A stretch of 46,375 nucleotides of DNA, taken from IMG/VR virus record IMGVR_UViG_3300031392_000003, positions 1-46,375 of that record; one strand, given 5' to 3'. The stretch comes from a virus. How positions within the stretch are numbered: the first letter of the stretch is position 1; every line of letters begins with the position of its first letter. Below, one piece after another: positions 2,529 to 46,111 of the stretch. The translations under genes and the position numbers were made by a program. Below the pieces are notes generated by a model. The model was not told the DNA's origin. It did not search any database and saw only the letters and a program-made list of their open reading frames with translations.

Positions 2529-3065
2529 ATGACTCACATTAGCTCACTAACGTCTGGTATTTACTCGTACATGGACGTTTTTACAGGCGATGTTAGCGCT
2601 ATCGACGGCGACTCTGTCGCTGGAGACTATGCAGCTCTATTCGCAGGCGGAACACCGGGAACTGACGTTCTACGCGTACCTTCGCCACGAGAATTCCCAG
2701 CCGTAGGTAACGCCGCTAACATTACTAACGTTCCTGTATTTGGCCAACAACAGTCCTCACAGGTATCAGGACAATCTGATGCTCCGTCGATGGACGTTAC
2801 AATCAACTACGTGCCTAGCGATATTCTAGAATTTGAAGATATCAAAGGTCAAGAAGTTGCTTTCCGCTTTATGTTTGCTGCTGCGGCGGTAACAGAAGCT
2901 GATGGTACAGCTGCTACGCTGGATGTTGATAACACAGAGTTCTACTGGAAAGGCAAGATCGAAGCCATCCAGCCGACTCCGTCTCTGACTGACTCAAACA
3001 CCGCCGTTATTAACATTTCGGTTCAGGTCGACTTTGTTGGTCCGTCGACTATCGCAGCTACCTAA
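2529..3065 (+). CDS. Putative major tail (tube) protein
   Basis: A 178-residue protein with TAAGGAG 9 bases before the ATG. The composition is Ala/Gly/Thr/Val rich with alternating strand segments, ending NTAVINISVQVDFVGPS, which resembles siphovirus tube subunits. It lies directly before the tail chaperone genes and the tape measure gene, the standard order for a tube protein. No C-terminal Ig-like extension is present. A phage promoter begins 20 bases after its stop. Confidence 0.7.
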   Translation: MTHISSLTSGIYSYMDVFTGDVSAIDGDSVAGDYAALFAGGTPGTDVLRVPSPREFPAVGNAANITNVPVFGQQQSSQVSGQSDAPSMDVTINYVPSDILEFEDIKGQEVAFRFMFAAAAVTEADGTAATLDVDNTEFYWKGKIEAIQPTPSLTDSNTAVINISVQVDFVGPSTIAAT

Positions 3066-3085
3066 TTTATTGATTTTTAATAGTT

Positions 3086-3105
3086 AATTAGGTGACGTTA
3101 AAGAG
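3086..3105 (+). promoter_or_regulatory. Phage single-subunit RNA polymerase promoter 1
   Basis: The 17-base core TTAGGTGACGTTAAAGA occurs here and at two other places, each in or beside an intergenic gap on the + strand. It closely matches the published SP6 promoter (ATTTAGGTGACACTATAGAAG), sharing TTAGGTGAC and the AnAGA around the start site. By that alignment the start G is base 3103. This copy drives the tail chaperones and tape measure. The phage-encoded T7-type polymerase at 18361-21277 is the likely reader. Confidence 0.85.
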
Positions 3106-3128
3106 GAGGCCCCTTCGGGGGTCTCTTC
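3103..3128 (+). promoter_or_regulatory. 5' mRNA stem-loop starting at the promoter's +1
   Basis: The arms at 3103-3113 and 3118-3128 form an 11-bp stem (two G-U pairs) around a TTCG tetraloop. It begins exactly at the predicted first transcribed base. There is no T-run after it, so it does not look like a simple intrinsic terminator. A 5' hairpin could protect the late mRNA from decay. Partial termination of upstream transcription is the alternative. Confidence 0.65.
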
Positions 3129-3147
3129 AATCAAGTTAGAGGAAGTT

Positions 3148-3378
3148 ATGAACGAAAAAAAGTTTAGATTCAGTAAAAACTACGTCCTAGATGTAACTGC
3201 TAAACATATGATTCGTGCTGTTGATATCAGTCTAGATAAGACCGCCCAGCGTATGGAACAGTTGACCCCAGAAGAAGGTCAGGAAGTATTAGAAACAATT
3301 AGTGAGTTGTTCAAACTCCGTAAGTTTTTAAAAGAGTATAGAGAAAGGTTCACCAAAGATGAAACATCTAGTTGGTAA
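3148..3378 (+). CDS. Small hypothetical protein before the tail chaperones
   Basis: A 76-residue protein with a GAGGAAG site, the first gene after phage promoter 1. It is helical and charged (TPEEGQEVLETISELFKLRKFLKEYRERF). It overlaps the chaperone G gene by 20 bases. Many siphoviruses have a small helical gene at this place, but I do not recognise its family. A tail-assembly role is an inference from position. Confidence 0.6.
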   Translation: MNEKKFRFSKNYVLDVTAKHMIRAVDISLDKTAQRMEQLTPEEGQEVLETISELFKLRKFLKEYRERFTKDETSSW

Positions 3379-3718
3379 GGAAGTCACTAAAGAAGTTGAC
3401 TTTATGGAAGAAAAAGTGAGCATTCGTAAACTGACGTTCGGTCAGATTATTGAACTACAGAAACAGATTAAAGCAGTCCAGACTAAGCCAAAGTCTAAGA
3501 AGAACGAGGAAGTGGATAGTATGGAGCTGCTTCGTATTGTTATTGGTGCTGGTGTAATTGGCGCGCAAGAGCTAAGTGTTGAAGACTACCAGTCTTTCCC
3601 ACCTGATGAACTTAATAACCTAGCAACAGAAGTCCTTAACTACATCGGTCTAAGTACTGATGCTGTAGAGGTTGACCCTGATAGTGATGTTGATGGAGAA
3701 ACCCCTATGGGAAACTAA
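3359..3718 (+). CDS. Tail assembly chaperone G (unshifted product)
   Basis: A 119-residue protein between the tube and tape measure genes, the standard site of the lambda G-type chaperone. It is helical (LTFGQIIELQKQIKAVQ; ELNNLATEVLNYIGLS) with an acidic tail. The last codons read ATG GGA AAC TAA and contain a slippery heptamer, so a fraction of ribosomes should continue into the -1 frame. It probably coats the tape measure protein during tail assembly. Confidence 0.8.
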   Translation: MKHLVGKEVTKEVDFMEEKVSIRKLTFGQIIELQKQIKAVQTKPKSKKNEEVDSMELLRIVIGAGVIGAQELSVEDYQSFPPDELNNLATEVLNYIGLSTDAVEVDPDSDVDGETPMGN

Positions 3719-11425: not shown

Positions 11426-11470
11426 AAAAAGTGAGAAAAACGAAGCATCTATAATGAACGAAAGTTCATC
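11426..11470 (+). promoter_or_regulatory. Repeat element A, copy 2
   Basis: The same unit as at 10291: TATAAT at 11450-11455 and the GAAA-loop hairpin at 11455-11468, followed by GTTCATCAACCCAACGCTCA. It shares the upstream bases AAAACGTACG with copy 4 at 14150. It lies 52 bases before the ATG of the small membrane protein gene. Confidence 0.6.
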
Positions 11471-11506
11471 GTTCATCAACCCAACGCTCAATGAAAGGGC
11501 ACAACT

Positions 11507-11698
11507 ATGTTTGCTATTGCTATCTCTGGTTTCGTTGCGATCTTAGGTTCTTTTGGGATCAACTTTGCTGCAATGAAAATTGCTACTGTTGTTGGAGCAA
11601 CCGTTTATAACGCAGTATGGGCAGCCCCAATAGCTTATGCTTTTACTGCAATAATTGCACAGTTTCCAATTGTTGCATTTATTGTTGCTCTGGTTTAG
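11507..11698 (+). CDS. Small membrane protein, copy 1
   Basis: A 63-residue, almost wholly hydrophobic protein (SGFVAILGSFGINFAAMKIA; YAFTAIIAQFPIVAFIVALV) that should form two membrane helices, with a GAAAGGG site before the ATG. An identical gene follows at 11867. No charged catalytic residues are present. It could be a holin-like or membrane-perturbing peptide, but nothing in the sequence decides this. Confidence 0.7.
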   Translation: MFAIAISGFVAILGSFGINFAAMKIATVVGATVYNAVWAAPIAYAFTAIIAQFPIVAFIVALV

Positions 11699-11708
11699 AG
11701 CAATAAAC

Positions 11709-11767
11709 GGGCTTTGAAAGCTAACACCTGAACATGTGTATAAACTGTTCATCAACCCAACGCTCAA
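11709..11767 (+). repeat. Repeat element B, copy 1
   Basis: The unit GCTTTGAAAGCTAACACCTG then AACATGTGTATAAACTGTTC recurs at 12069, 12881 (partial) and 14488. It contains TATAAA and the inverted pair GAACA...TGTTC and, in three of four copies, runs into ATCAACCCAA, which element A copies 2-4 also share. It may be a second promoter/operator type, or the 3' end of each cassette. Confidence 0.6.
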
Positions 11768-11785: not shown

Positions 11786-12127
11786 AAAAAGTGAGAAAAA
11801 CGAAGCATCTATAATGAACGAAAGTTCATCGTTCATCAACCCAACGCTCAATGAAAGGGCACAACTATGTTTGCTATTGCTATCTCTGGTTTCGTTGCGA
11901 TCTTAGGTTCTTTTGGGATCAACTTTGCTGCAATGAAAATTGCTACTGTTGTTGGAGCAACCGTTTATAACGCAGTATGGGCAGCCCCAATAGCTTATGC
12001 TTTTACTGCAATAATTGCACAGTTTCCAATTGTTGCATTTATTGTTGCTCTGGTTTAGAGCAATAAACGGGCTTTGAAAGCTAACACCTGAACATGTGTA
12101 TAAACTGTTCATCAACCCAACGCTCAA
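11786..12127 (+). repeat. 342-bp perfect direct repeat, copy 2
   Basis: The second copy of the unit at 11426-11767, containing element A copy 3 (TATAAT at 11810-11815), the second 63-residue membrane-protein gene and element B copy 2 (12069-12127). The absence of any visible difference between the copies implies a recent event or ongoing gene conversion. An assembly artefact is possible but the unit is short enough to be spanned by ordinary reads. Confidence 0.95.
11867..12058 (+). CDS. Small membrane protein, copy 2
   Basis: Identical in sequence to the 63-residue protein at 11507-11698, with the same leader and ribosome site. The duplication doubles the gene dosage of this two-helix membrane peptide just ahead of the pentapeptide-repeat genes. 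Confidence 0.7.
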   Translation: MFAIAISGFVAILGSFGINFAAMKIATVVGATVYNAVWAAPIAYAFTAIIAQFPIVAFIVALV

Positions 12128-12148: not shown

Positions 12149-12802
12149 ATGAAATACGATATCCAAAACCGCCACACTGGAGAAATCCAGTTTACGGCTG
12201 ACTTTGCCTGCGCCAACGACTTTTCGGACTCAGTAAAAATTGGTCTGGCCGTAAGATGGGCTATAGAAAACGACGTCGATCTGAGCGGTGCTCTCCTAAA
12301 TGGTGCCAATCTGCGCTATGCCAATCTGAGTGGTGTCAATCTGCGCTATGCCGATCTGCATGGTGCTCTCCTAAGTGGTGCCAATCTGCGTGAGGCCAAT
12401 CTGCATGTTTCCAATCTGCGCTATGCCGATCTGCATGGTGCCAATCTGCGCCATGCCAATCTGCGCCATGCCAATCTGCGCTATGCCGATCTGAGCTATG
12501 TTGATCTGCGCTATGCCGATCTGCATGGTGCTCTCCTAAGTAATGCCAATCTGCGCTATGTCAATCTGCATAGTGCCAATCTGCATGTTGTCAATCTGCG
12601 TGAGACCGATCTGCATGGTGCCAATCTGAGCTATGCCAATCTGAGTGAGGCTGATCTGACTGGGGCCAATCTGCGTGGGGCCAATCTGCGTGGGGCCAAT
12701 CTGCGTGGGGCCAATCTGCATGGTGCTCTCCCAAGTGAGGCCAATCTAAGTAAAGCTCATGGTATTTTGCGTGTTGGGCCGAGCGCCGACGGCCACTCTT
12801 GA
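12149..12802 (+). CDS. Pentapeptide-repeat protein, C-terminally truncated copy
   Basis: A 217-residue protein. Residues 1-45 form a short N-terminal domain (MKYDIQNRHTGEIQFTA, KIGLAVRWAIEN). About 30 pentapeptides of the A(N/D)L type follow (GANLRYANL, LHGANLRHANL), predicting a right-handed quadrilateral beta-helix. The paralogue at 12940 continues after DGY with a C-terminal domain. Here about 112 bases are missing after GACGGC and the frame stops early at DGHS. Homology to the paralogue resumes in non-coding form up to about 12832. The leader TTGTGGCTAGGAGGCC supplies the ribosome site. Some pentapeptide proteins mimic DNA and bind gyrase, but that role is not shown here. Confidence 0.85.
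   Translation: MKYDIQNRHTGEIQFTADFACANDFSDSVKIGLAVRWAIENDVDLSGALLNGANLRYANLSGVNLRYADLHGALLSGANLREANLHVSNLRYADLHGANLRHANLRHANLRYADLSYVDLRYADLHGALLSNANLRYVNLHSANLHVVNLRETDLHGANLSYANLSEADLTGANLRGANLRGANLRGANLHGALPSEANLSKAHGILRVGPSADGHS
12280..12755 (+). repeat. Pentapeptide-coding 15-bp repeats, first gene
   Basis: Runs of GCCAATCTGCG(C/T)..., 15 bases per unit, are repeated with blocks of near-identical 45-60 bases also present in the second gene (for example CTGCATGGTGCTCTCCTAAG). The DNA-level identity invites unequal recombination within and between the two genes. Confidence 0.8.
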
Positions 12803-12880
12803 GCGGAGCGGATAACGTTTGTAAACTTTATCGAAGCACAGATGTTACCCAATAAGATCTGATTAGTCAGGTCTTATTAT

Positions 12881-12918
12881 GACACCTAAACATGTGTATA
12901 AACTGTTCATCAACCCAA
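12881..12918 (+). repeat. Repeat element B, copy 3 (5' end divergent)
   Basis: ACACCTAAACATGTGTATAA and CTGTTCATCAACCCAA match element B, but the GGCTTTGAAAGC part is missing. The TTGTGGCTAGGAGGCC leader of the pentapeptide gene follows at once. The TTGAAA seen in other copies is thus not a fixed part of the element. Confidence 0.6.
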
Positions 12919-12939
12919 TCTTGTGGCTAGGAGGCCAAA

Positions 12940-13770
12940 ATGAAATACGATATCCAAAACCGCCACACCGGAGAAATCCAGTTCACAGCTAACTTTGGCT
13001 GCACCGACGACGTTTCGGACCCAGCAAAAATTGGTCTGGCCGTAAGATGGGCTATAGAAAACGGCGTCGATCTGAGTGGTGCTCTCCTAAGTGGTGCCAA
13101 TCTGCGGTATGCCGATCTGAGTGAGGCCGATTTGACTGTGGCCGATCTGTGCTATGCCGATCTGCATGGTGCTCTCCTAAGTGGTGCCAATCTGCGCTAT
13201 GCCGATCTGAGCTATGCCAATCTGCGTGAGACCAATCTGCGCTATGCCAATCTGAGTGAGGCCAATCTGCGCTATGCCGATCTGCATGGTGCTCTCCTAA
13301 GTGGTGCCAATCTGCGCTATGTCAATCTGCATGGTGCCAATCTGAGCTATGCCAATCTGAATGAGGCCGATCTGACTGAGGCTAATCTGTGCTATGCCAA
13401 TCTGCACTATGCCGATCTGCGTTATGCCTATCTGAGCTATGTCGATCTGCGTTATGCCGATCTGTGTGAAGCTAATCTGAGTGGTGCCAATTTGCGTGAA
13501 GCTAATCTGAGTGGTGCCGACCTAAGTAAGGCTCATGGTATTTTGCGTGTTGGGCCGAGCGTCGACGGCTATGAATTTTTCAGCGTGGTCAGGGATGACC
13601 AAGTATGGATTAAAGCCGGTTGCCGATGGTTCACATCTGACGATGCCCGGACTCACTGGAACAAGACTCGCGGCGGTACATCACTGGGAGCGGAGCGGAT
13701 AAGCTTTGTAAACTTTATCGAAGCGCAAGCTGTTCATCTCCCCAATCTTGTGGCTGGGAGGCCAACATGA
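12940..13770 (+). CDS. Pentapeptide-repeat protein with C-terminal domain (full copy)
   Basis: A 276-residue protein. Residues 1-45 are the same N-terminal domain as in the gene at 12149. Residues about 46-198 are pentapeptides (GANLRYADL, SYANLRETNL). The C-terminal domain from about 200 reads ILRVGPSVDGYEFF, then KAGCRWFTSDDARTHW and FVNFIEAQ. This C-terminal domain resembles that of the beta-helix protein at 45440 (DGYMF, AGCRDFTPDEAKAHW). The stop overlaps the next start (ATGA). It is probably a cytoplasmic rod-like protein with a ligand or partner site at the C-terminal cap. Gyrase or host-protein binding is a possibility only. Confidence 0.85.
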   Translation: MKYDIQNRHTGEIQFTANFGCTDDVSDPAKIGLAVRWAIENGVDLSGALLSGANLRYADLSEADLTVADLCYADLHGALLSGANLRYADLSYANLRETNLRYANLSEANLRYADLHGALLSGANLRYVNLHGANLSYANLNEADLTEANLCYANLHYADLRYAYLSYVDLRYADLCEANLSGANLREANLSGADLSKAHGILRVGPSVDGYEFFSVVRDDQVWIKAGCRWFTSDDARTHWNKTRGGTSLGAERISFVNFIEAQAVHLPNLVAGRPT

Positions 13771-16698: not shown

Positions 16699-16887
16699 AT
16701 GACAAATAACAAAATCCTAAAAACTAAGGAGATTACTGCTACAAACACCGAAAGTCTTGAGCGTAAAGTCGCTAAATACATTATGAAAGTTCGCCCAAAT
16801 GGCGGGGTAGATCCCCTTGAATTCTTTGAATGTCGCGCCTATCTTAATAAACCAATCAAGCGTATGAGGATTACACACAGTGTCTAA
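16699..16887 (+). CDS. Hypothetical protein, 62 residues
   Basis: The first gene after the strong terminator, with AAGAGGCAAATA before the ATG. It is basic (ESLERKVAKYIMKVRPNGG; NKPIKRMRITHSV). It overlaps the start of the HD-domain gene by 8 bases, so the two are likely coupled. No family is recognised. Confidence 0.6.
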   Translation: MTNNKILKTKEITATNTESLERKVAKYIMKVRPNGGVDPLEFFECRAYLNKPIKRMRITHSV

Positions 16888-17494
16888 AGAAATTGAAAAC
16901 GCAGTAGAAACGTTCACGTTGTGGCGATCTGGTTTCGTAAATCGTTATCACTCACACCATGAGCATAGCCTCAGAAACTCGGCAGATCTCACAGACGCAC
17001 ATTCTGCTCGTATGGTGAAGCTGCTTTTGTCTCTTTTTAAAAAAGAAGTTGACCTACAAACAGTTTTGTATATCATTATGCATGATGCACCAGAGTTTGC
17101 AGCAGGTGACTCACCTCATCATGCTAAAAACAAATCTCCTGAACTAAAGAAAGCTCTTGACAATCTAGAATCTAATGAAATGAAGAGGTTTGAATTCCAT
17201 TGTTCAAGGAGCTTTACTTACCCCGCAGCAGTTACAGACCGCCAGAAAGATATTGTCAGAATGTTGGATCAACTTGATAGCCTTCTTTTTCAAGCTTCTA
17301 TAAAACCAGAACGCATGGATCAAGAGCTAACTCTGATTGCTGGCATCCTTAGTCAGGCATCTAAACTTGGTGTTCGTCAAGACGTGGGTCTTTTGATCGT
17401 ACGAGCTTTCCGATTCTACGGATCAAACTATGACCTCGGATCAAACCCAAAGACAAGTGATATGGAAATGCAATCGGAGGCGTATCGAGTATGA
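16880..17494 (+). CDS. HD-domain phosphohydrolase (YfbR-like)
   Basis: A 204-residue protein starting at GTG 16880 with GAGGATT upstream. It has the HD metal-site pattern: RYHSHHEHSLRNSADLTDAH near the N-terminus, then the HD pair in IIMHDAPEFAAGD (about residues 69-80), and a C-terminal Asp in MLDQLDSL. This resembles the YfbR family of 5'-deoxynucleotidases and related HD hydrolases. In a phage it may act in nucleotide turnover, but substrates cannot be read from sequence. The next gene overlaps by ATGA. Confidence 0.75.
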   Translation: MSKEIENAVETFTLWRSGFVNRYHSHHEHSLRNSADLTDAHSARMVKLLLSLFKKEVDLQTVLYIIMHDAPEFAAGDSPHHAKNKSPELKKALDNLESNEMKRFEFHCSRSFTYPAAVTDRQKDIVRMLDQLDSLLFQASIKPERMDQELTLIAGILSQASKLGVRQDVGLLIVRAFRFYGSNYDLGSNPKTSDMEMQSEAYRV

Positions 17495-18344: not shown

Positions 18345-18360
18345 GATAACAGGAGGCGGT

Positions 18361-21277
18361 GTGGAAGCATCAGAAACTCTAGAAGCCCTCGAACAAGACC
18401 TAAGTTACCGTCTTGAAAATCTTGACACCAGAAATGGTGCCTACTGGCTCACGGAAGAGAAACTATCTGCGGAAAACCTTATCGCCTTCAGTTACCCCCA
18501 TGTTCTGAGAGCAATTGAGCGAAGAGGAACGCTGGTAGAGCTATCTGCTTCTATTGGTCGTAGGCTAAGACAAAAGAACAAGCTACCACAAGACTCTATT
18601 ATGGAAATCCATGCTGGGTGGTTTATTGTAATAAGTTTCATAGACATTGGCTTGATTTCTTACACAAAAGAAAAGACAAATCGAAATACAAAGGTCTCTA
18701 AGCACAGAGCCTATGTTATTGTAGCAGAAGATTGGAAACGTCTCAAGACTCTGATTGATACAATCGATATGGACAATTGTGACATGTTTCCTGTCAATAT
18801 CGTCCCAGCACCTTGGGTCAAGGGATATCCATATCATTCAACTACTGGCACACCAATTGTTAAAAGAGGGTCTGCCATGCAACTTGACCCATTTAAAAGA
18901 CCCAGCGAAGAAATGGAAGTGCTTTTCTATGTTCTAAATAAACTAAGCAGCACTGGATGGAGGATCAACAAGGATGTCTTTGCAGTCTATGAACACTTCA
19001 TGGAAAAATCCGAAGACTATAGTGAGTCTCCGTTCAAATATTATAGAGAGGTCGACAACAAGAAAAAACGGTCTATGCTAATAGAAGCGGAAGCCGTCCG
19101 AAAGCTTGCAAATCTCCACCTTGATAAAACTTTCTACCACTTATATAACTTCGACTTCCGTTAATCCTATGGCGGAAGTAAAACTCTGTGAATTCGGTAA
19201 ACATCCAATGTGACAATACCGAGCCAAGCTAATTTTTAATTAGAAGGTGTAGAGACTATTATGTAGAGCCAAGTGGCTCGAAGCGCAGAGGCCTAGTATA
19301 GGTATGATATAGTCCGATCTTCTTAGTAATAAGGAGCAGAACATGCGAATATGGAAAGATATTAAAGGCTTTGAAACCGTATACCAAGTATCTAATAAAG
19401 GAGAAGTACGTCGTTTAGATACTCTTGTTCCCTTCAGTGGAACTATGGCGTTAAGAAAAGGTAGATATCTCAAGCCTACTAAAAACTCTAAAGGTTACCT
19501 GACTTTAGTTCTATGTTATAAATCAAAGAGATGCACAAAAACAGTTCATCAGCTTGTTGCGGATAGTTTTATCTTAAAGGTGCCTAGCTTGACACAGGTT
19601 AACCACATAGACGGAAACCCACTCAACAACAGCCTTTGTAATCTAGAAAGATGTACTCCTTCTCACAATCAACTTCATTCTTACAGGATGAATGGAAGGA
19701 AAAACCCAATGAGGAAACTTACAGAGCTAGAAGTGATAGAAGTAAAGAAGAGGCCTAATATGAAGAGGAAAGCTCTTGCAAAGAAGCTCAATGTCACGGA
19801 GTGGTGCATAAAACAAATAAGGGCTGGAAAAACTTGGTCGCATGTTACGGTAGAAGACTAACGATCTTCTGCGAACAATATGGGTAGGATTTACCCCAAC
19901 ACGGCATTCTTACATGAACAGTCTTCAGATAACGCTCGCGGTATCCTAATGCTGGACGAACCAGTCCCGCTAGGTCCTAACGGCCAAAAGTGGTTATACA
20001 CCTATGCTGCAAATGTATGGGGAGAAGACAAGATACCGCTAAAAGAAAGAGTTGAATGGGTAGAAGATAACTTGCATTATATTAAAGATTACGCGCGCGA
20101 TCCGCTTTCTCATCGTGGATGGATGAAAGCTGATAAACCTTTCTCTTTCTTAGCCTCTTGCTTTGAAATTGAAGCCTTGACTGCGTGGGAAAAGCGAGGT
20201 GAAGAATCAGAAGATTTCCCGTCTTGCCTACCGGTCTTCATAGACGGTAGTAACAATGGTGTTCAACACCTTGCTGCTATGTCCCGTGATGAAGAGGTTG
20301 CGCCTCTTGTCAATCTTGTACCTCAAGCTACCCCCGGCGATGTATACATGTTCATTGCTGATAAGGTATGGTCTAGGTTAGAAGACATGCGTAGCAAACT
20401 ACCTAAGAAAGTAGTAAATAGATTTAGTGCTGTGCAAAGTAAGGGTATAGAGCTGCAAAAGAAGTACTCTGAAGCTCCTCTTGGGTCAGATCGTAAGGAA
20501 ATTGCCTATAAGAATCTTATGAAATGGAAACAGAGTAATAGGGATCTTAGAGAAAAGCTATTCCCTGTCTATTGGCTCAAATTAACTAAGAAACAGAGGA
20601 GATCAAGCGTCAAGAGAAATACTATGACACTCGGTTATGGCGGTACCCCCTACGGTATGGGTCAACAAGTAATTGAGGACACCAGAGGTATTAGCGATTA
20701 TCTGAGAGACAAGGACTATCTCTGGGGTATAATGTTAGGAGACTTAGTATATCGTACCTGTTATGATGAACTAAAAGGCCCAGCTAGAATGCTCAGGCTG
20801 TTTGAAACCCTTGCGGAGAGAGCAAATGAAGAAAATAAGCCGCTCACATGGCATACACCAACTACTGGGTTTCCAGTGGTACAAGAGTATCGAAAAGCAA
20901 AGGCTGTACGCGTACGCCTACAACATGGACCCAAAACTCTGTGGGTCCAAATTCAAGTTTGGGAAGAGAGTACTCTTAACGAAAGCAAGCAAAAAACAGG
21001 GGCTGCACCAAACATCGTACATTCGTTGGATGCTGCACACTTGGCCCATACTGTACATGATTGCTCATTTTCAGTTGTTGTGGTACATGACTCTTTCGGT
21101 TGTCATGCCGCCCATATGGAAGATCTCTTCTACAGGGTACGCAAAACGTTTAGACGGCTACATGAAATAGATCCTCTTAGAGAGATCTTAGAAGAACTTA
21201 ACTCTTTAGATCTAATGCCAGAAAGAGGCAAACTAGATCTTAGCAAAATAGAGGAATCAGACTATGCCTTTGCATAA
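18361..21277 (+). CDS. T7-type single-subunit RNA polymerase, split by a group I intron
   Basis: The spliced product is join(18361..19161,19883..21277), 731 residues, from GTG with AGGAGG 4 bases upstream. Exon 1 ends in YHLYNFDFR and exon 2 begins GRIYP, restoring the conserved DxxGR motif (T7 YNMDWRGRVYA). Catalytic residues are present: Asp in PVFIDGSNNGVQHL (T7 D537), Lys and Tyr in KRNTMTLGYG (T7 K631, Y639), His-Asp in VVVHDSFG (T7 H811, D812), and the end ESDYAFA (T7 ESDFAFA). It is shorter than T7 RNAP (883), mainly in the N-terminal part and specificity-loop region. Unspliced mRNA would stop at TAA 19162-19164 and give a dead fragment. The likely targets are the three promoters at 3086, 21963 and 31527. 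Confidence 0.95.
19162..19882 (+). mobile_element. Group I self-splicing intron in the RNA polymerase gene
   Basis: The 721-base intron follows U 19161 and ends in G 19882. P1 forms between exon ACTTCCGT (19154-19161) and the guide GCGGAAGT (19172-19179), with the required U-G pair at the splice site. Core elements are visible: P AATTCGGTAAAC (19191-19202), Q CAATACCGAGCCAAGC (19214-19229), R GGTGTAGAGACTA (19246-19258) and S GATATAGTCC (19306-19315). P4 pairs CGGTA with TACCG, and P7 pairs ACTAT with ATAGT. An HNH endonuclease gene fills the 3' half. Splicing joins CGT to GGT in frame. Confidence 0.92.
19343..19861 (+). CDS. Intron-encoded NUMOD4-HNH homing endonuclease
   Basis: A 172-residue protein with AAGGAG 6 bases before the ATG. 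It begins with a NUMOD4 motif (RIWKDIKGFETVYQVSNKGE), followed by an HNH_3 core (KTVHQLVADSF, QVNHIDGNPLNNSLCNLE) and a C-terminal helix-turn-helix-like unit (KRKALAKKLNVTEWCIKQIR). It should cut intron-less polymerase alleles and promote intron homing. It is flanked by the 9-base direct repeat CGATCTTCT (19315-19323 and 19862-19870). Confidence 0.9.
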   Translation: MRIWKDIKGFETVYQVSNKGEVRRLDTLVPFSGTMALRKGRYLKPTKNSKGYLTLVLCYKSKRCTKTVHQLVADSFILKVPSLTQVNHIDGNPLNNSLCNLERCTPSHNQLHSYRMNGRKNPMRKLTELEVIEVKKRPNMKRKALAKKLNVTEWCIKQIRAGKTWSHVTVED

Positions 21278-21962: not shown

Positions 21963-21980
21963 ATTAGGTGACGTTAAAGA
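21963..21980 (+). promoter_or_regulatory. Phage RNA polymerase promoter 2
   Basis: The core TTAGGTGACGTTAAAGA at 21964-21980 is the same as at 3088 and 31530, with start G at 21979. It stands before the SSB and replication genes. The early transcript contains GCGC/GCGC (21989-22001) and GAGAGC/GCTCTC (22009-22031) hairpins, again placing structure near the 5' end. Confidence 0.85.
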
Positions 21981-28633: not shown

Positions 28634-31351
28634 ATGCCCAAGTATAATCAGATTTGCCCCGCTCATGGGGGTAACAGCTTCACAGTCTTTGATGATGGTG
28701 GTGGTTACTGTCATAATGCAGAATGTGGAGCAAAGTTTAAATCAGGGTCGTTTGATCCCGATACTGGAGAGGAAATGGGTACCGGAGAATATAAAACAAA
28801 GGAGGAATACTCTAAAAAACCAAAGGGTTGGTCTGATCGTAAAGACCCTAAGTTTGCCAAAGCTGTATTTGATGCCTATGACTCGGATAAATACGAGTTG
28901 AAGAAAATATCTCTACGAACAATGGAGCTATACAACTGTAAAGTATCCTACTTTGATGATGGAGACCAAGAAGCAGTTTATTATGCCTATAACATTGATG
29001 ATGGTATTCCAAAAGGCTATAAGAAGAGAGTTCTACCTAAGGATTTCTCTGAAGGCACAGTAGGTGAAATGAAAGGCTTGTTTGGTTGGGGTCTGTTCCC
29101 AAACAAGGGTAAGAGGGTAGTAATCACCGAAGGTGAAGACGACTGTATGAAAGTACAAGATGGCAACTACGGCATCTATAAAAGACACTACCCTGTTTAC
29201 TCTATTCAAAGTTCCGTTGCAACAAAAGACTTAATTGACGTAAGAGAGGAACTCAGGAAGTTTGATGAGATTGTTATCTGGTTTGATAATGACGGACCCG
29301 GTCAAAAAGCAACTAAAGAAGCCGCTAAGATACTTGGCTACGACAAGGTTAAAGTTGTTCAGACAGTTGATGGTGTAAAGGATGCTTGCGACTATGCAAA
29401 AGAGTATGGCATAGACCACGTAGTTTGGGCTATTGCTGATGCTAGAGAGTATTCTCCTGCTGCTATTCTTAACGGTAAAGACCTCTGGGAAAGGCTAGAG
29501 GCATATAACAATAAACAGTCTGTACCTTACCCAGACTATATGGAGGGTCTAAACGAAAAGCTTAGAGGTATACGAACTGGTGAAATTACCCTTTGGACCT
29601 CTGGCACAGGCTCTGGGAAGTCTACCCTAATGAGAGAGATCGTTTACCACCTACAGCAGGGTGTCTCAGAGGAGACCGGAGAGGCATGGGTTCACTCCTC
29701 TAGTAGGGTAGGTATCATCAGCCTAGAGGAGTCACCAGAGGAGTACACTAAGAAGCTCTCTGGTATGGCTATCAACAAGAACCCCTCTTACGAAGATGTC
29801 CCTATGGAAAACCTGAGAGAAGGCTTTGATAAGGTCTTCGCAGATGGAGATATTCTGGTGTTGGACCATCAAGGCTCTATCAGCGACGGGTCTATTATGG
29901 ACCACCTAGAGTTCATGTGTCTGAAAGGTTGTAAGTATCTTTTTATCGATCACATTACAATTCTTGTTTCTGAAGGTTCAGACGGGCTTACTGGTAATGA
30001 AGCCATTGACAAGATTATGAACAGTCTCTTGCATCTAGCTAAGAAGTATGATGTGTGGATTGGTCTAATCTCTCACCTTCGTAAAAGAAACAACGACCAG
30101 AAAACTTTTGAACAAGGTCGTATTCCGTCCCTAGACGACATCAAAGGTTGTTTAGCTTATGACACAGAAGTATTAAGCTATAAGGGTAGAAAAGTAAAAG
30201 TACAAGACATCAAAGTTGGTGACAAGCTCATGGGTCCAGACTCATTACCAAGAACAGTTATGAGCCTAAAAACCGGTGAACAACGTATGTATAAAGTATC
30301 TAACAAAACATCAAAAGATTATTTTATCTGTAATGAGAACCATGTATTGACTCTATCAAGAAATAATAGAATGTTTGATATGAAAGTTAAAGACTTTTTA
30401 GATAAAAGTAAAAGCTTTCAGGTTAGGTGTAAACAACACTTCTCGGAAGGGTATGAACTAGATAATAAGGATCTTATTATACCCCCTTACTCTTTAGGGG
30501 TTTGGCTTGGAGACGGTTCTAAGTCTGCTTTCAGGATCATGGATGCTTCTGACTTAGGTATTGCAAAAAGGGTAAGCAAAGAATTGAATGCAACTTTGAA
30601 GACACCATCTAATAGAAAGAAAGAATATTTCAACTTTGTAACTACTACAAAAGGTGATTTACTCAATAAATTAAAGCATATTGGTGTTCTAAATAACAAA
30701 CACATTCCTCCTGACTATAAGTTTAACTCTAGGGAAAATAGAATCCAGTTAATTGCCGGGTTAATAGATACAGACGGAACTTACTCAAAGAAAGACAGGT
30801 GTTTTTATTTTTACCAGAAAGATAAAACAATGGCGGAAGATGTAAAGGACATTGCAAGGTCTTTAGGTTTTTATAGTACTTGTCGCCCTCAAAAGATAAC
30901 TTCAACAAGCTATTCTTCATATAACTCTACTATTTACCAAGTAACGATTTCAGGTGCAATAGATAAGATACCTTGTCAAAAGTCATCAAGAGTACCACCT
31001 AGTAGGAAACGTAATGACTGTCTAAAAAGAGGAATTATCATTGAGAAACTTAATGAAGATAGGTACTATGGCTTTACCTTAGACGGAGACGGTAGGTTCT
31101 TATTGGGTAACCATATAATCACCCACAATTCTGGTTCTATCAAACAGATTTCTTTCGACGTCATTGGCTTTGCAAGAAACCAAGAGTCAGACGACGATAA
31201 AGAGCGAAACACTATGATGCTAAGTGTACTCAAGTGTCGCTTCACTGGCCAAACCGGCCCTGCTGGTAAGCTATATTACAATCATAAAACTGGAAGGATG
31301 CAGGCTGATACAGACAAGCTCATGAGAGTAGAAGAAATGAAAGAAATCTAA
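28634..31351 (+). CDS. Primase-helicase, T7 gp4-like, with intein
   Basis: A 905-residue precursor giving a 578-residue mature protein. The N-terminus is a primase zinc ribbon (Cys8, His11, Cys26, Cys31). A TOPRIM domain follows (RVVITEGEDDCMKVQDGN; EIVIWFDNDGPGQKA). The RecA-type helicase has Walker A SGTGSGKST (about 322-331), Walker B CKYLFIDHITILV and GLISHLRKR. An intein (residues 506-832) breaks the motif DIKG/SGSIKQ, equivalent to T7 DLRGSGALRQLSD. The protein should unwind the fork and lay down primers with the SSB and family A polymerase. Confidence 0.95.
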   Translation: MPKYNQICPAHGGNSFTVFDDGGGYCHNAECGAKFKSGSFDPDTGEEMGTGEYKTKEEYSKKPKGWSDRKDPKFAKAVFDAYDSDKYELKKISLRTMELYNCKVSYFDDGDQEAVYYAYNIDDGIPKGYKKRVLPKDFSEGTVGEMKGLFGWGLFPNKGKRVVITEGEDDCMKVQDGNYGIYKRHYPVYSIQSSVATKDLIDVREELRKFDEIVIWFDNDGPGQKATKEAAKILGYDKVKVVQTVDGVKDACDYAKEYGIDHVVWAIADAREYSPAAILNGKDLWERLEAYNNKQSVPYPDYMEGLNEKLRGIRTGEITLWTSGTGSGKSTLMREIVYHLQQGVSEETGEAWVHSSSRVGIISLEESPEEYTKKLSGMAINKNPSYEDVPMENLREGFDKVFADGDILVLDHQGSISDGSIMDHLEFMCLKGCKYLFIDHITILVSEGSDGLTGNEAIDKIMNSLLHLAKKYDVWIGLISHLRKRNNDQKTFEQGRIPSLDDIKGCLAYDTEVLSYKGRKVKVQDIKVGDKLMGPDSLPRTVMSLKTGEQRMYKVSNKTSKDYFICNENHVLTLSRNNRMFDMKVKDFLDKSKSFQVRCKQHFSEGYELDNKDLIIPPYSLGVWLGDGSKSAFRIMDASDLGIAKRVSKELNATLKTPSNRKKEYFNFVTTTKGDLLNKLKHIGVLNNKHIPPDYKFNSRENRIQLIAGLIDTDGTYSKKDRCFYFYQKDKTMAEDVKDIARSLGFYSTCRPQKITSTSYSSYNSTIYQVTISGAIDKIPCQKSSRVPPSRKRNDCLKRGIIIEKLNEDRYYGFTLDGDGRFLLGNHIITHNSGSIKQISFDVIGFARNQESDDDKERNTMMLSVLKCRFTGQTGPAGKLYYNHKTGRMQADTDKLMRVEEMKEI
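30149..31129 (+). mobile_element. Intein with LAGLIDADG homing endonuclease
   Basis: This is a 327-residue in-frame insert in the helicase. It starts with Cys (CLAYDTEVLSYKGRKVKVQD, block A), has block B NENHVLTL and ends RFLLGNHIITHN before extein Ser. Two LAGLIDADG motifs (SLGVWLGDGS and IAGLIDTDG) form a homing endonuclease. All residues for splicing (Cys1, His-Asn end, Ser+1) are present. Removal restores the helicase motif DIKGSGSIKQ. Confidence 0.93.
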
Positions 31352-45365: not shown

Positions 45366-45443
45366 ATGTCCGACTTCGCCACGCGCCTGTTCCTGATTAT
45401 GGACCGCCAGCGCGACGATCAACACAAGGAGACAGACAGATGA
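45366..45443 (+). CDS. Short peptide gene before the beta-helix gene, 25 residues
   Basis: ATG 45366 with CGGAGAGAG upstream encodes MSDFATRLFLIMDRQRDDQH plus five residues, and its TGA overlaps the next ATG (ATGA). The AAGGAG ribosome site of the beta-helix gene lies in its last codons. It may serve translational coupling rather than code for a functional product. Confidence 0.45.
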   Translation: MSDFATRLFLIMDRQRDDQHKETDR

Positions 45444-46111
45444 AAGAGCAAACTCACAATTTCGGAGACGGCAACGGCCCCGTTCCTGCGCACAGGCATA
45501 TTAAAGGCAACGGGTGGGTGGCTGATACGGCTAACGTACATAATAGCGCGTACATTGGAGAAGATGCGCTGGTCTACGGCAATGCGCTGGTCTACGGCAA
45601 TGCGCTGGTCTCCGGCGATGCGCTGGTACACGACAATGCGCTGGTCTACGGCAATGCGCGGGTCTACGGCGATGCGTGGGTCTCCGGCAGTGCGCGGGTC
45701 TACGGCAATGTGCTTGTCTACGGCGATGCGCGGGTCTCCGGCAATGCGCGGGTCCGCGGCGATGCGCTGGTCTACGGCAATGCGCTGGTCTCCGGCGATG
45801 CGCGGGTCCGCGGCGATGCGTGGGTCTCCGGCAGTGCGCGGGTCTACGGCAATGCGCTTGTCTACGGCGATGCGCGGGTCTCCGGCAATGCGCTGGTCAA
45901 GCGCGGGGTGTACACGTCTACGCCTACAAGCATAACCCGATCAGATGGGTACATGTTCACCTTGCAATCGGACGGATCGATTGTCGCTGGGTGCCGCGAC
46001 TTTACGCCTGACGAGGCGAAAGCCCATTGGGGCCACCCTAAGCACCACAAACATCGTGAAAGCATGGCAATTGTCACCGCTCTGAATGCAATCGCTGCCG
46101 AGCGACAGTAA
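45440..46111 (+). CDS. Left-handed beta-helix (hexapeptide-type) repeat protein
   Basis: A 223-residue protein. Residues 1-40 form a short N-terminal part (GWVADTANVHNSAYIGEDAL). From about 40 to 155, six-residue units of the type (A/G)x(A/G)xVxG repeat about 19 times (ALVYGNALVYGNALVSGDAL), predicting a left-handed beta-helix. The C-terminal domain (SITRSDGYMFTLQSDGSIVA, then GCRDFTPDEAKAHW) resembles the end of the pentapeptide protein at 12940. Acyltransferase-type catalytic His is not evident. It is probably a structural or binding rod in the cytoplasm. Confidence 0.8.
   Translation: MKEQTHNFGDGNGPVPAHRHIKGNGWVADTANVHNSAYIGEDALVYGNALVYGNALVSGDALVHDNALVYGNARVYGDAWVSGSARVYGNVLVYGDARVSGNARVRGDALVYGNALVSGDARVRGDAWVSGSARVYGNALVYGDARVSGNALVKRGVYTSTPTSITRSDGYMFTLQSDGSIVAGCRDFTPDEAKAHWGHPKHHKHRESMAIVTALNAIAAERQ
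45555..45905 (+). repeat. 18-bp coding repeats of the beta-helix gene
   Basis: Units such as GCGCTGGTCTACGGCAAT and GCGCGGGTCTCCGGCGAT repeat at 18-base spacing. Near-identical longer blocks recur (for example at 45658 and 45838), indicating recent expansion by slippage or unequal recombination. Confidence 0.85.

Follow-up and report, generated by a model that had tools for sequence, protein, structure and literature searches.

In this uncultured phage, the DxxGR codons of the T7-type RNA polymerase gene appear to be interrupted by a mobile, HNH endonuclease-encoding group I intron, which would splice out of the transcript to give a 732-aa polymerase and would home; we put the probability of this reading at about 94%. 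The stretch analysed, called here the window, is a viral record of 46,375 bases. Splicing is proposed because of the intron anatomy and the empty-site homologues, and homing because of the endonuclease family, the site-specific lineage of the endonuclease and the patchy distribution. The initial annotation had placed a group I intron at 19162-19882, and this is borne out by a full-length match to RF00028, covarying helices, P1, P10 and the terminal G, and the join of the protein. The elements of the gene and of the intron are the following.

18361-19161 (+): RNA polymerase exon 1, 267 aa, ending ...FDFR (translation, join)
19162-19882 (+): group I intron, 721 nt, terminal G at 19882 (RF00028, contigs L001-L004, uninterrupted homologues)
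19154-19179 (+): P1, exon strand ACUUCCGU at 19154-19161 with IGS GCGGAAGU at 19172-19179, 8 bp, terminated by U.G (sequence, covariation)
19163-19170 (+): P10 partner strand in the P1 loop, pairing with 3'-exon 19884-19891, 8 pairs, one of them G.U (sequence)
19184-19290 (+): P3, 19184-19189 with 19285-19290, enclosing P4-P6 and a peripheral hairpin GAGCC/GGCUC (Rfam alignment, RNAalifold)
19254-19314 (+): P7, GACUA at 19254-19258 with UAGUC at 19310-19314 (Rfam alignment; invariant across the intron alignment)
19319-19336 (+): P9 hairpin, 3' strand containing AAGGAG at 19331-19336 (Rfam, RNAalifold)
19343-19861 (+): homing endonuclease ORF, 172 aa, NUMOD4 and HNH_3 (Pfam, PDB match)
19850-19872 (+): 3'-terminal hairpin, P9.2-like, its loop including the endonuclease stop codon (fold -9.2 kcal/mol, z -2.3)
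19883-21277 (+): RNA polymerase exon 2, 464 aa, beginning GRIYP... (Pfam RNA_pol)

The polymerase gene begins with a GTG start at 18361, with AGGAGG just upstream at 18351-18356. Exon 1 is homologous to the RNA polymerase of DSS3_VP1 along its entire length, and its end at 19161 (...FDFR) is directly followed by TAA. Exon 2 matches Pfam RNA_pol (PF00940) at 3.9e-82 and T7 RNA polymerase (1aro) at 9.4e-50, with its GR aligned to T7 residues 424-425; the interrupted motif is DxxGR, T7 residues 421-425. The T7 alignment also places motif A (IDGS.NG), motif B (K..MTL.YG) and motif C (HDSFG) in the protein together with DxxGR, which marks it as T7-type. Exact removal of the 721 nt yields a single T7-type polymerase of 732 aa, collinear with the unsplit DSS3_VP1 enzyme, and D-F-R-G-R runs uninterrupted across the junction in about 60 intronless homologues, including the roseophages DSS3_VP1 and DSS3_PM1 (Naomviridae). 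The match of this product to uninterrupted homologues upholds the earlier proposal that excision rebuilds DxxGR by joining FDFR to GRIYP. That proposal had also described the motif as needed for catalysis: DxxGR is indeed conserved, but it is distinct in the T7 alignment from motifs A and C, to which the catalytic aspartates belong.

A covariance-model search, which the initial annotation had put forward as a check, matched Rfam RF00028 (Intron_gpI) at 19152-19336 (+) over the full model length with 53.4 bits and an E value of 7.1e-11, slightly above the gathering threshold of 50. This was the only Rfam match in the entire 46 kb; the Rfam filters overlooked true introns in long stretches (L057, L084), and negative long-sequence scans therefore mean little. 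The 5' splice site, 19161|19162, is marked by the U.G pair of P1, and the 3' splice site, 19882|19883, by the terminal G. The predicted P10 is an independent fix on the 3' splice site, and it is preserved with different bases in the same-site intron of L057. Thus the U-G splice pair, the terminal G and the exact sites 19161/19883 given earlier agree with P1, P10 and G19882. The core elements P1, P4 and P7 named with them are also present, P1 and P4 in the RNAalifold consensus and P7, by analogy the guanosine-binding helix, in the Rfam alignment. RNAalifold on 11 related introns recovered P1, P3, P4, P5 and P9, and 21 of its 38 pairs show two-sided, pair-preserving changes among these introns. 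Hairpins like that at 19850-19872 precede the 3' splice site in related introns too. The minimum-free-energy fold of the single intron sequence was unexceptional (z -1.17), and the case for the intron is therefore based on the covariance model and on comparison.

The ORF within the intron matches Pfam PF07463 (4.8e-15) and PF13392 (2.2e-7) as well as the HNH homing endonuclease of PDB 1u3e (1.4e-7), which we take to be the structure of I-HmuI; the predicted enzyme is a NUMOD4-HNH endonuclease of the I-HmuI kind. The AAGGAG at 19331-19336 in the 3' strand of P9 is likely its ribosome-binding site, with the ATG at 19343. As this site lies within P9, translation of the endonuclease would be reduced from the folded RNA.

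The identical 721-nt intron is found in four near-identical further contigs (L001-L004) from four metagenome records. In the window and in L001, L002 and L003 its non-coding part is the same, and the endonuclease ORF carries 3, 11 and 13 changes; the 11 base changes in the L002 ORF cause just 3 amino-acid changes. L057, whose exons share about 52% nucleotide identity with the window, has a 763-nt intron at the identical DxxGR site, which is empty in its relatives at 86-92% amino-acid identity. A third lineage, L121, also has an intron at this site, and its relatives at 82% are empty. Introns at the same site together with empty relatives at 82-92% are, as far as sequence comparison goes, the signature of a mobile intron. 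Among the window's own close relatives no intronless allele was found. The flank of the L057 insertion site, examined for a co-conversion tract, is conserved throughout the relatives. The same P1 is present in introns of other phage genes, and a pattern scan of bacterial genomes for the window-type P1 returned 21 loci, none with a polymerase hit; in the stretch examined directly after the match, most of these loci have no intron core.

Related phages carry introns at several positions of the same gene. Introns interrupt DxxGR in the window group, L057 and L121, and L084 has one seven codons before this insertion point. Motif A is interrupted in L084 and L213, and the position just before motif B in L084, L213 and L238. 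Introns at the motif-B tyrosine are found in L053, L054, L056, L057, L084, L088, L207, L209-L212, L217, L225, L228 and L238, with one slightly beyond it in L208. Every one of these introns that was tested with Rfam was confirmed, and several others are defined by the gene break and core sequence; the fourth intron of L084 was identified via P1 and core sequence rather than Rfam. The HNH insertion of Pseudomonas phage ZC08 (L279, 24703-24968) is likewise a group I intron (88.9 bits), located directly after the HD of motif C. Taken together, these positions show a set of introns that has invaded the polymerase gene at its core motifs across related phages. As a separate observation, the RNA polymerase gene of the 104-kb contig L084 (6900-10600, -) contains four group I introns, two of which are separated by a 19-nt exon (AATGTTATGGTTCTTCCGT); a similar 19-nt exon occurs in L238.

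The DxxGR and motif-B introns often share the exon target bases (A)CUUCCGU. The ribozyme of the L121 DxxGR intron (2765-3566) resembles the motif-B introns of L207 and L209 at 83-85%. Deep branches of the large ribozyme tree with all introns were unsupported and a reduced tree was used, in which the L121 ribozyme clusters with the L207 and L209 motif-B ribozymes (99/99 support). Constraining the three DxxGR ribozymes together was marginally rejected (AU p 0.04), a test that was set up after the grouping had been seen and is suggestive only. The endonuclease of L121 groups with the DxxGR and nearby-site enzymes, and most motif-B enzymes form a separate family. Endonuclease lineages largely track insertion sites; outside its own group, the best viral-contig matches of the window endonuclease are the same-site enzymes of L057 and L121, at 52% and 44%. 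Most simply, ribozymes would move from one guide-matching site to another and acquire endonucleases suited to the new site. The discordance of ribozyme and endonuclease in L121 at shared targets would then be a case of site change and endonuclease exchange within one gene.

In the mechanism that we propose, the intron would fold in the transcript, guanosine would attack the 5' splice site, and ...FDFR would be joined to GRIYP... in a 732-aa polymerase. In mixed infections, related phages whose RNA polymerase gene lacks the intron would probably have that gene nicked or cut by the endonuclease, and its repair would then copy the intron in. The intron would be present in the polymerase gene because it carries a homing endonuclease, a component that the initial annotation did not mention, and the DxxGR site would be used because it is nearly invariant within the gene.

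Repeats of TTTAGGTGACGTTAAAGA occur in three copies in the window (at most one mismatch) against 0.08 expected, all of them intergenic and on the + strand.

3087-3104 (+): intergenic promoter-like repeat (w)TTAGGTGACGTTAAAGA, a candidate site for the window polymerase (3 copies at 3 or fewer mismatches, 0.08 expected)
21963-21980 (+): intergenic promoter-like repeat, the first one past the polymerase gene, also in L001-L004
31529-31546 (+): promoter-like repeat, intergenic (repeat count)

DSS3_VP1 (L276/L277) has a sister motif, ATAGGKKRCGYTAAAG, in 13 copies, every one on the + strand, and we take the repeats to resemble the SP6 promoter. The TTTAGGTGACGTTAAAGA and ATAGGKKRCGYTAAAG repeats are probable promoters of the Naomviridae polymerase, and their occurrence in the window and in DSS3_VP1 suggests that this polymerase drives much of the genome. 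If so, phage transcription would need splicing, as with any intron-bearing essential gene, and such a dependence is plausible. Dependence on constitutive splicing is not regulation.

A stronger proposal would make the intron a regulatory gate, in which timed or conditional splicing decides the onset of the phage's own polymerase and of most phage transcription. We consider this quite improbable. The in-frame UAA at the very 5' junction would suit it, as would the candidate polymerase promoters at intergenic positions across the genome, and the initial annotation had taken the in-frame TAA for a lock on the polymerase. This claim is weakened: 14 of the 16 introns extracted from RNA polymerase genes begin with UAA whatever their phase, and in the motif-B introns of L207 and L088 it is out of frame. 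The initial UAA is therefore, on this comparison, a consensus of the intron family that falls in frame at DxxGR by chance rather than a purpose-built lock. Moreover, about 60 relatives manage without the intron, the sequence gives no hint of conditional folding, and the intron bears the hallmarks of a mobile element. The combined proposal that intron removal is the control point for the onset of phage-driven transcription, and that the N4-type splits arose as introns repeatedly invaded DxxGR and motifs A, B and C, is improbable.

It is also conceivable that the gene is truly split, the 267 aa ending in ...DFR and 465 aa from an ATG at 19880 assembling in the manner of N4 RNA polymerase II, with or without splicing. 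By analogy, an active two-piece enzyme is not unthinkable, since N4 RNA polymerase II consists by nature of two chains, divided 31 residues past the same motif; an ATG stands immediately before exon 2, and in G7C the genes of the two subunits are separated by an HNH gene. Such a split is nevertheless very unlikely here: 19880 has no upstream ribosome-binding site, the ribozyme core and the splice-site pairings are intact, and the break would fall within DxxGR, not beside it. A conserved internal start for exon 2 was rejected, as the same-site introns of L057 and L121 have no ATG. An N4-type two-subunit break at the same position was rejected as well: N4 gp15 runs on for 31 residues after its DKRGR, whereas the break in the window lies inside DFR|GR. 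The two-piece polymerase of Salmonella phage LPST153, considered as an intron case, has overlapping ORFs with no intervening element and was assigned to a frameshift; the Klebsiella mtp14 polymerase, which is unannotated, is also in two pieces. Finally, that the intron is dead and the gene inactivated, or that the insert is an assembly artefact absent from the phage, is extremely unlikely. The modest Rfam score is the point in its favour, set against the recurrence of the same insert in the four metagenome records of L001-L004, both exons and the endonuclease ORF being open, and the low proportion of amino-acid changes in the L002 ORF.

Other features of the phage genome were recorded. The primase/helicase ORF of the window (28634-31351, +, 905 aa) has an intein inserted, in which a Hint domain spans residues 506-580 and LAGLIDADG/Hom_end approximately residues 699-775; the PHROGs label 'terminase' for this part is misleading, and the DSS3_VP1 homologue is without the insert. 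The ORF at 16880-17494 (+) encodes a YfbR-like HD hydrolase, of the Pfam family of the DSS3_VP1 dTMP phosphatase (PMC12697855). DSS3_VP1 has deoxyuridine DNA (PMC12697855), and the hydrolase family suggests that the DNA of the window phage may contain deoxyuridine also. An exact 300-nt direct duplication is present at 11426-11725 and 11786-12085, at a spacing of 360 nt, with further short repeats nearby. Periodic 15-nt repeats span two ORFs at 12149-13770 (+), the second of which (12940-13770) encodes a pentapeptide-repeat protein, and about 25 units of an 18-nt tandem repeat within an ORF at 45440-46111 (+) give a six-residue protein repeat.

It is well established that phage genes can harbour group I introns encoding HNH enzymes. 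Such introns have been described in the phage DNA polymerase genes of SPO1 (I-HmuI), Bastille (I-BasI) and Pf-WMP3 (I-PfoP3I), and for Pf-WMP3 both splicing of the intron and nicking of the empty site by its enzyme have been demonstrated (PMC3428280). These systems share with the window a group I ribozyme, an HNH ORF, a conserved replication or transcription gene and empty sites in relatives; their host gene is a DNA polymerase, whereas that of the window is a T7-type RNA polymerase, for whose intron splicing and nicking are predicted. In phage transcription genes, the PhiPA3 gp210 intron lies at conserved residues of the beta gene of a multisubunit phage RNA polymerase, and gp210 targets the empty site of a competing phage (PMC11620839); group I and II introns are found in the virion RNA polymerase of AR9/PBS1 (PMC12350094). 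These are likewise introns with endonucleases in phage transcription genes, but the polymerases are multisubunit and unrelated to the T7-type. In the open-access literature, to which the search was confined, no description of an intron within an unsplit T7-type polymerase was found.

A close case is ZC08, for which a 'homing endonuclease inside RNAP2' has been published (PMC5418858). There, too, an HNH element, in a group I intron, lies within a T7-related phage RNA polymerase gene, but the ZC08 polymerase is of the split N4 type and the element comes directly after the HD of motif C in its second subunit, whereas the window intron lies at DxxGR in an unsplit enzyme. With ZC08 supplying motif C, every T7-type motif examined (DxxGR, A, B and C) is now intron-bearing in some phage. 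The rule that homing elements favour nearly invariant codons fits these sites and is extended to the T7-type polymerase family, in which no intron named as such turned up in the open-access papers searched. N4 RNA polymerase II (gp15/gp16) is itself T7-related, and its coding sequence too is broken into two parts close to DxxGR; it differs in that the split is permanent, 31 residues downstream, yielding two proteins with no intron. The split N4 polymerase has been suggested to descend from an interrupted one (PMC5418858), and the intron-bearing genes, as living examples of the interrupted state, make this idea testable. The window intron is of interest for the motif hotspot to which it belongs and for what it may reveal about how split N4-type polymerases arose.
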